Shown piece by piece: positions 31,047 to 60,172 of a stretch of DNA of 64,000 bases. Source of the DNA: Sphingobacterium humi (GTDB lineage: Bacteria; Bacteroidota; Bacteroidia; Sphingobacteriales; Sphingobacteriaceae); contig NZ_WSQA01000005.1 of NCBI RefSeq assembly GCF_009768885.1, positions 186,001 through 250,000 of the forward strand, read 5' to 3'. The position numbers and the translations under genes were made by a program. The notes beneath the pieces are model-generated. The model did not search any database. It was not told the origin of the DNA and saw only the letters and a program-made list of their open reading frames with translations. Position 1 is the first letter of the stretch. Each line of letters begins with the position of its first letter.

Positions 31047-31112
31047 TCAATTTTTGACGTTTAATTGTAAGGAATGTAAAAACTATAGTTACAAACTATT
31101 ACTTAGTGTTTT

Positions 31113-31127
31113 TGGCACACTCTTTGA
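31113..31127 (+). promoter_or_regulatory. Sigma-54-like promoter (-24 TTGGCAC, -12 TTTGA)
   Basis: TGGCACACTCTTTGAT has the -24 GG (31114-31115) and -12 G (31126) at the correct N10 spacing; the -12 C is replaced by A. It lies between genes and points to a terminator, not to an ORF. Confidence 0.45.
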
Positions 31128-31137
31128 TTTAGTGTTA

Positions 31138-31207
31138 GCATTCATAATTTAGGTTAATAATTGGTTAGTTTAGGCTTGTATTCTCCCCGAATACAAGCCT
31201 TTCTTTT
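31138..31207 (+). ncRNA. Candidate small RNA of about 70 nt
   Basis: The interval from the predicted start (about 12 bases after the sigma-54-like -12 element) to a strong terminator contains no ORF of note. The terminator has a perfect 12-bp stem AGGCTTGTATTC / GAATACAAGCCT (31172-31200), loop TCCCC and a TTCTTTTTT tail. No coding gene ends near it: the helicase upstream runs the other way. A terminator without a gene implies a short non-coding transcript. I recognise no known RNA family. Confidence 0.45.
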
Positions 31208-31209
31208 TT
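31172..31209 (+). terminator. Strong orphan intrinsic terminator
   Basis: Perfect 12-bp stem with a 5-base loop and TTCTTTTTT tail. It ends the candidate small RNA and also insulates the repeat element that begins directly downstream. Confidence 0.9.
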
Positions 31210-31645
31210 GCTGGGGTGCTGTCGTAGTGCTGTCATCGTTTTGCTGAGGTGCTGTCATCGTTTTGCTGTCATCGTTTTGCTGGGGTGCTGTCATCAGTTT
31301 GTCATCAATTTGTCATGGTGTTGTCATCGTGAGCGGAGTCGAACGACTGGTACGTCAGTGCAATCAGAAATGTGCAACTAACTAAATAATAAGTTATTAC
31401 AAAAACAGCGGAGAGAACTAAAGTGATTAATTAAAATATTAGTAATAAGTGTGTTAAGTATGATTGATTGCACTGACGTACCAGTCGTTCGTGGTTCGAC
31501 TCCGCTCACCATGACAAATTGATGACAAATTTATGACAGCACCACAACAGGCCCCCCAAACACACCCTCTCGCTCTCTCCCTTTTCTCCTCCCTTGCTCA
31601 CCCCTTTCACTCCCCTTTCAACCCCCTTTCAAGAGGGATAAAATA
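31209..31645. repeat. Composite inverted-repeat element, copy 1
   Basis: Five parts in order. A tract with three exact copies of GCTGTCATCGTTTT (31229, 31251, 31265). A left arm 31329-31366, beginning GTGAGCGGAGTCGAACGACT. An AT-rich core of about 100 bases with no ORF. A right arm 31465-31509, the reverse complement of the left arm with a 7-base insertion. A pyrimidine-rich block 31546-31645 (CTCTCCC, CCCCTTTCA repeats). Each arm contains its own small hairpin (AGTCG-AA-CGACT). The whole arrangement recurs inverted near 60 kb. There is no transposase, so it resembles a REP/MITE-like non-autonomous element. Confidence 0.88.
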
Positions 31646-59672: not shown

Positions 59673-59700
59673 GCGATCCGCTTTAACAGAAGGAAATAAG

Positions 59701-59731
59701 AAATCCCGGTTCATGTGAGCCGGGATTTTTT
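59701..59731 (+). terminator. Intrinsic terminator after the secreted 206-aa protein
   Basis: Stem AAATCCCGG with further pairing / CCGGGATTT, loop around ATGT, then a T run. Confidence 0.9.
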
Positions 59732-60001
59732 ATGGCATGCTATGGAGATGGGTTTTTTAATACGCTTTGTTATACCTTTTTTCTCCCTTTGCAGAGCCCT
59801 TTGTAAAGGGGGGTGATACGGGTGTGAAAGGGGAGAGCAAGGGGAGAGAAAGGGGGGAGGACGGTAGTTGGTAGTGCTGTCATCGTGAGCGGAGTCGAAC
59901 GACTGGTACGTCAGTACAATTAATCATGTATTGTGTTAATTATCAGTGTTTTGTGTGAACCTATCATCGCAAACGGCATCGTAACATTGGAACATCACAA
60001 T

Positions 60002-60045
60002 AATAATAACTTGTTTATCAAAGTGTTGATAAACAAGTTATTATT
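60002..60045. repeat. Perfect 19-bp hairpin in the core of element copy 2
   Basis: AATAATAACTTGTTTATCA and its exact reverse complement are separated by AAGTGT. It is nested inside the larger inverted arms. Confidence 0.9.
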
Positions 60046-60073
60046 GTTATTTACCTGCACTGACGTACCAGTC

Positions 60074-60100
60074 GTTCGTGGTTCGTGGTTCGTGGTTCGT
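60074..60100. repeat. 7-bp tandem repeat in the right arm of element copy 2
   Basis: Three copies of GTTCGTG plus a partial fourth. The matching site has one extra unit in the right arm of copy 1 and none in either left arm, which indicates slippage. Confidence 0.85.
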
Positions 60101-60112
60101 CCTTCGACTCCG

Positions 60113-60172
60113 CTCAGGATGACAAAGCTCAGGATGACAAAGCTCAGGATGACAAAGCTCTCGATGACAATG
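60113..60172. repeat. 15-bp tandem repeat at the end of element copy 2
   Basis: Three exact copies of CTCAGGATGACAAAG and one degenerate copy (CTCTCGATGACAATG). Confidence 0.92.

Follow-up and report, generated by a model that had tools for sequence, protein, structure and literature searches.

TGTC-tagged REP-like doublets dispersed through intergenic regions of Sphingobacterium humi

The stretch of Sphingobacterium humi DNA analyzed here (the window, 64,000 nucleotides) holds two copies of a repeat family with ~100 intergenic elements in the 4.69-Mb, 32-contig genome (G000). The explanation that we prefer, with a probability of about 0.68, is that the repeat is composite and non-autonomous, a TGTC-tagged REP doublet spread by a trans-acting enzyme other than a resident Y1 transposase. 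Under this explanation, a facing pair of tagged REP hairpins of the CGTC superfamily with conserved arms of ~45 bp would constitute a non-autonomous interspersed repeat, whose copies would have arisen in one Sphingobacterium lineage by insertion into spacers that were short and for the most part adjoined the 3′ ends of genes. In single-stranded form, the tagged hairpin would most likely be what a DNA-processing enzyme acts on in trans, moving the element by cutting and joining, with the tag as the putative cleavage site. A Y1 (RAYT/IS200) transposase resident in this genome would not be that enzyme: the mover would be an enzyme of another kind, or a RAYT that has since disappeared.

Anatomy of the element

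Copy 1 lies at ~31.21–31.65 kb and copy 2 at ~59.78–60.20 kb of the window. The parts of the two copies, and a neighboring terminator, are as follows (window positions).

31209..31321, + strand: copy 1 tag array, inward-pointing, degenerate TGTCATCnnnT units
31322..31366, + strand: copy 1 left arm, with tagged hairpin TGTCATCGTGAGCGGAGTCGAACGAC and inner motif TGGTACGTCAGTGCAATCA
31367..31464, no strand: copy 1 core, variable and AT-rich
31465..31516, − strand: copy 1 right arm, inverted; its stem is of the GG/CC type and it carries a single 7-nt insert, CCACGAA
31517..31538, − strand: copy 1 tag array on the right, built of GATGACA units
31565..31640, + strand: copy 1 pyrimidine block, CCCCTTT units in 11-nt phase
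59696..59740, + strand: the 206-aa gene's own intrinsic terminator, lying outside copy 2 and at the same place in congeners
59778..59865, − strand: copy 2 pyrimidine block, on the opposite side relative to copy 1, motif CCCGTATCA..CCCCTTT.CAAAGGG
59878..59922, + strand: copy 2 left arm
59923..60055, no strand: copy 2 core, with its own internal hairpin of 23 bp at 59999–60048
60056..60124, − strand: copy 2 right arm, containing several heptamers (GTTCGTG)
60125..60170, − strand: copy 2 right tag array, 15-nt units GCTCAGGATGACAAA

Both copies have the part order described in the first-pass annotation (tandem tract, arm, AT-rich core, inverted arm, pyrimidine-rich block), and their arms are indeed inverted pairs: GTGAGCGGAGTCGAACGACT, with a chance expectation of 0, occurs exactly at 31329 and 59885 and has inverted partners with 2–3 mismatches at 31490 and 60098. 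The annotation had counted 31 identical bases in one arm. That identity is real but slightly longer: the longest stretch shared by the two copies is 38 bp when they are aligned directly (31322 = 59878) and 23 bp when one is inverted, both being present because an element is almost a palindrome in its own right. As the pyrimidine block lies to the right of copy 1 and to the left of copy 2, the copies are, in that sense, inverted relative to each other, as had been claimed.

Across the family, the element consists of an inverted arm pair, TGTCATxxTGAGCGGAGTCGAAyy...GGTACGTCARTGCAATCA, around a variable AT-rich core. From the outside inward, the parts are the tag array, the tagged hairpin, optional heptamers (CCACGAA), the inner motif CTGGTACGTCARTGCAATCA and the core; the arm fades into the AT-rich core on the inner motif side, and the core varies in length. 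The whole unit is ~450 bp, with an arm-to-arm spacer of ~100–400 bp and conserved inner arms of ~20–45 bp. Cores are mostly unrelated between copies.

The tag, TGTC followed by AT, was found in nearly all of 126 arms that had been pre-filtered for a GTCAT-like end (≤1 mismatch). Stem types in these arms were compensated (CG/CG in 54, GG/CC in 44 and CC/GG in 11), and 232 of the 252 xx/yy stem positions were paired, compared with 162 ± 5.5 (maximum 187) in shuffles. It is therefore TCATxxT...Ayy that is the conserved pairing, rather than the AGTCG-AA-CGACT hairpin previously assigned to each arm, which has a 2-nt loop; single arms fold weakly, being by folding energy no more stable than shuffled sequence. 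Contiguous stem pairs number only 4–5 (5 in G004, a closed, single-contig congener genome), and a CCA tail is not clearly present. Within an element, the left and right arms were no more alike than arms from different elements. Concerted evolution of arms within an element, which single cases had seemed to show, was rejected (stem concordance 18/45, p = 0.23; p = 0.22 for arrays and p = 0.83 for inner arms). A tRNA-like character of GGTTCGACTCCGCTCACCA was likewise rejected, with no tRNA match and no Rfam match at gathering score.

The arrays outside the arms are strongly oriented. In 90 flanks of 100 bp, TGTCAT pointed inward 116 times and outward 8 times, and successive units were most often 11 nt apart (127 such gaps). 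The pyrimidine block genuinely belongs to the element: 41 of 50 intergenic regions with an element had it, versus 1 of 51 others of ≥100 bp, and it lay on a single side in 39 of 40 block-bearing copies. Its CCCCTTT units were separated by gaps of 11 nt (68 gaps) or 22 nt (36 gaps), and the block ends in CCCGTATCAATCCCCTTTGCAAAGGG. Phased (11-nt) CCCTTT/GGGTTT arrays were also observed upstream of the helicase orthologue in two congeners (L194 in G093, L193 in G079), and, since REP arms are absent there, this suggests from sequence comparison that the block module may be older than the composite element. A second repeat module was seen beside arms at several loci (L001, L018, L033, L069 and others), in which TGTCATCGTGAGAGGGTAAAATGTTTGCAAAATTTATTGGAAGGTGATGACA is followed by GC-rich CGGCACGC units, the whole being bounded by TGTCATC and GATGACA.

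Copy number and insertion into short spacers

The annotation had proposed a genome-wide search for further copies, and these proved to be numerous. The 13-mer GAGCGGAGTCGAA occurs exactly 190 times in the genome (92+98; reversed control, 0), and the tagged 21-mer GTCATNNTGAGCGNAGTCGAA 208 times with ≤1 mismatch (102+106). The first 99 13-mer hits fell into 54 clusters, of which 34 were ‘+-’, three ‘++-’, three ‘+--’, 14 single and none ‘-+’, making the inverted doublet the main arrangement. The loci read comprised these 54 regions and the window, or about half of the copies; those on later contigs were counted only. These counts support the earlier view of a REP-like element lacking its own transposase, in the form of a non-autonomous composite with many copies in the genome, and they run counter to the lack of further copies that the annotation had named as grounds for refuting it.

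Comparison with orthologous sites indicates that both window copies were probably inserted, because congeners have short spacers there. The spacer that holds copy 2 measures 552 bp, as against 66, 69 and 88 bp in G079, G093 and G013, the three nearest congeners found (83–84% amino-acid identity in the flanking HEAT-repeat protein), whose spacers hold the terminator only. The hairpin was found in 0 of 26 other orthologous HEAT-gene loci. At copy 1, the distance from the DUF2807 stop to the helicase leader is ~530 bp here versus ~25 bp in G013; this site carries other repeats in G079 and G093, so that the clean short spacer is that of G013 alone. The copy 2 site seems to accept insertions, as its orthologous spacer holds an apparent fragment of a group II intron reverse transcriptase in L157 (G069) and seemingly a gene in L151–L153.

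A possible inversion of the 28 kb between the copies had also been raised. The helicase|DUF2807 and 206-aa gene|HEAT gene adjacencies are both those of the congeners, so the assembly shows no fixed inversion of this kind; since the elements are nearly palindromic, recombination between them could delete as well as invert. The helicase and HEAT genes are 29 kb apart here and ~205–257 kb apart, on the same strand, in G079, G093 and G013, so that ~180–230 kb differs between the two loci. The helicase gene, which is of DbpA type, has a conserved 5′ leader (window 31065–31206, − strand) comprising a GGGGA-loop hairpin and then AACTAACCAATTATTAACCTAAATTATGAAT. This leader is kept upstream of orthologues with 50–61% amino-acid identity (L196–L201) and in L195; it matched no Rfam family at gathering score and is possibly autoregulatory.

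Candidate mobilizing enzymes and alternative explanations

Across ~340 kb of loci and the window itself, no predicted gene contained an element. The inner arm motif had no match at ≤1 mismatch in 93 other genomes of the genus, and none in viral contigs. G004 contains 205 tagged hairpins, which in the loci read formed compact doublets ~45 bp apart, often nested in a CGTCATTGCGAGGAACGAAGCAATC repeat. In G030 (L085–L113), a different dispersed repeat was observed around GGGTGAGCGGAGTCGAACCC, with flanks GATCTTGGTCCATCC and CATCCTGGTTCAAA, and this was not arranged as doublets.

The first-pass annotation had suggested that a RAYT-type enzyme elsewhere in the genome may move the element. A resident RAYT is unsupported, because no Y1_Tnp (PF01797) match was detected in G000 or G004, whereas the same search was positive for 28 of the 60 relatives and 5 of the 14 controls. 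G000 has four small contigs (C22, C24–C26, ~6 kb) that read as N, and a hidden Y1 gene is therefore possible there; no such limit is known for G004. The present copies could alternatively be the decaying remnants of a REPIN moved by an ancestral RAYT that has since been lost. Hairpin doublets with tags do resemble REPINs, several congeners have Y1_Tnp genes, and variable cores are what decay outside recognized ends would leave. However, the two hairpin-richest members of the genus, G000 and G004, are those just described as having no Y1_Tnp match, while the genomes richest in Y1_Tnp (G002 and G036, with 12–19 matches) have no tagged hairpin. Moreover, of 108 arms selected by the inner motif, independently of the hairpin, 82 retain the hairpin 13-mer exactly, and CGTC-REPs elsewhere were not seen flanking RAYT genes in the part of their description considered here (PMC3733652). 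We therefore regard a lost RAYT as unlikely.

Other candidates for the mover were examined and rejected. IS110 (PF02371) and rve (PF00665) transposases gave single matches in G000 and 22 and 5 matches, respectively, in G004, and the hairpin was not consistently adjacent to them in the loci read. An autonomous parent element was not apparent in the loci read either: long arm-to-arm intervals and contig ends proved to be host genes or rRNA operon flanks with no transposase. The long intervals read held the host genes for PRPP synthetase and MTHFR, or acyltransferase and GNAT genes. The acyltransferase gene (L033, 3273–4214) and the GNAT acetyltransferase gene (L060, 3464–4006) each lie between opposing arms and are possible captured genes; as there are two such cases and neighboring elements explain both, a reading of these genes as cargo was set aside.

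The placement of the elements bears on functions that do not involve movement. Of the 50 element-bearing spacers, 29 were co-directional, 16 convergent and 5 divergent, compared with 146, 28 and 30 of 204 other neighboring gene pairs, so that convergent spacers are enriched (16/50 vs 28/204, p = 0.006); these counts are approximate because the gene calls came from a simple custom ORF scorer. This enrichment would suit an RNA-level element, either a bidirectional terminator, as the annotation had considered, or a 3′-UTR stem-loop, as would the 32 of 60 element-facing 3′ ends with no other terminator and the predicted RNA fold of the whole element, which is far more stable than shuffles (−148.9 kcal/mol and z −11.4 for copy 1; z −8.6 for copy 2). 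We nevertheless consider an RNA-level role highly improbable. No T run follows the arm hairpins in either window copy, and a terminator role is unsupported because many flanking genes keep their own: 28 of the 60 facing 3′ ends have an intrinsic terminator before the element (4.6 expected), and the three congeners compared at the copy 2 site use the one small terminator alone.

The elements could also be chromosome-organizing sites, in which repeats phased at 11 nt toward a dyad are bound co-operatively by a putative compacting, bridging or segregating protein, a function that would account for retention of the copies. Tag arrays and CCCTTT arrays share the 11-nt phase, and the intergenic elements, at about one per 40 kb, are spaced more evenly than random (CV 0.73 vs 1.00 ± 0.14, p = 0.01), although this evenness could stem from gene-dense sequence and contig ends. 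Based on period and spacing, a phased protein-binding role is possible. As an explanation of the family, organization of the chromosome appears quite improbable, given that the element as such is absent from the 93 congeners and that tag arrays range from none to ~ten units among copies. A tentative combination, in which a composite CGTC-type REP spreads without Y1 and its helically phased tag arrays dock a putative non-HUH protein that mobilizes it or organizes the chromosome, is conceivable but doubtful.

Elements were also observed near rRNA operons, on both sides (beside 5S rRNA at L043 and L082, and upstream, as judged by sequence, at L050, L069 and L079). Three copies upstream of rRNA operons are 78–95% alike, core included, unlike most others, and it is only next to rRNA operons that copying of a whole element is visible. 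Concerted evolution could explain this likeness. This restriction tells against the preferred explanation, as do the weak folding of single arms, the lack of a recognizable target-site duplication or autonomous parent in the loci read, the imperfect fit to classical CGTC stems and tails, and the reliance on G013 alone for a clean short spacer at copy 1.

The preferred reading, a non-autonomous doublet moved in trans by an enzyme other than a resident Y1, bears on how CGTC-tagged REPs spread, which was left open in 2013, in the text considered here, because no transposase had been linked to them (PMC3733652). Two Sphingobacterium genomes, one of them closed, with ~200 tagged hairpins each and Y1 undetected, provide a tractable system. 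Candidate enzymes would be expected to be common to G000 and G004, and the many congeners in which copies are few or absent provide the contrast for a search. Testable substrates for binding and cleavage are offered by the tag arrays, with their 11-nt phase, and by the one-sided block.

Comparison with known systems

Element sequences searched as strings in the literature gave primer-like matches only. Like MITEs such as RUP and Correia elements, the element has long terminal inverted repeats, no gene and an intergenic location; in contrast to them, its core is unconserved, and in the approximately half of copies read neither a parent insertion sequence nor a target-site duplication was found, with degenerate tag arrays blurring the element ends. 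With the REPIN/RAYT system (Bertels and Rainey 2011, PMC3116915), it shares inverted pairs of REP hairpins that are intergenic, high in copy number and lineage-specific. It differs in being much longer and more complex, in its tag (TGTC rather than GTAG), in having no detected Y1/RAYT gene and, accordingly, no RAYT gene flanked by repeats.

The nearest architectural parallel, judging from the part of the source considered, is with the Neisserial NIME arrays of dRS3 and RS (PMC3898611), in which short inverted hairpins and variable units (30–160 bp) likewise form intergenic arrays. The dRS3 repeat, ATTCCC-N8-GGGAAT, differs in sequence from the hairpin described here and is known as a site of phage integration, for which the present element showed no counterpart; phased tag arrays are not reported for NIME in that part of the source. 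In the 2013 account, dRS3 is itself filed under CGTC-1 REPs (PMC3733652).

It is with the CGTC-tagged REPs of Di Nocera, De Gregorio and Rocco (2013) that the likeness is closest in detail. In the portion of their paper considered here (PMC3733652), the tag options are CGTC, TGTC or CCTC, followed by AT at the stem base, TGTC being a stated variant; the repeats have AT next to the tag and covarying stems, occur mainly as doublets with a 3′-end bias, are found in Bacteroidetes, and had no dedicated transposase. The present element shares the TGTC tag with AT, compensated stems, doublets, 3′-end bias and absence of a transposase. Classical CGTC-REPs have a stem of 8–9 bp, a loop of 4–5 nt and a CCA-like tail, and, because a clean match in stem length and tail was not obtained, we consider membership of the CGTC-REP superfamily likely rather than certain. 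The element's own features are the spacer, inner arms and unit length given above, the 11-nt tag arrays, the one-sided, phased CCCCTTT block and the heptamer inserts. Relative to the CGTC-REP description, as far as the portion considered extends, the extended arms, phased tag arrays and polar block are new.
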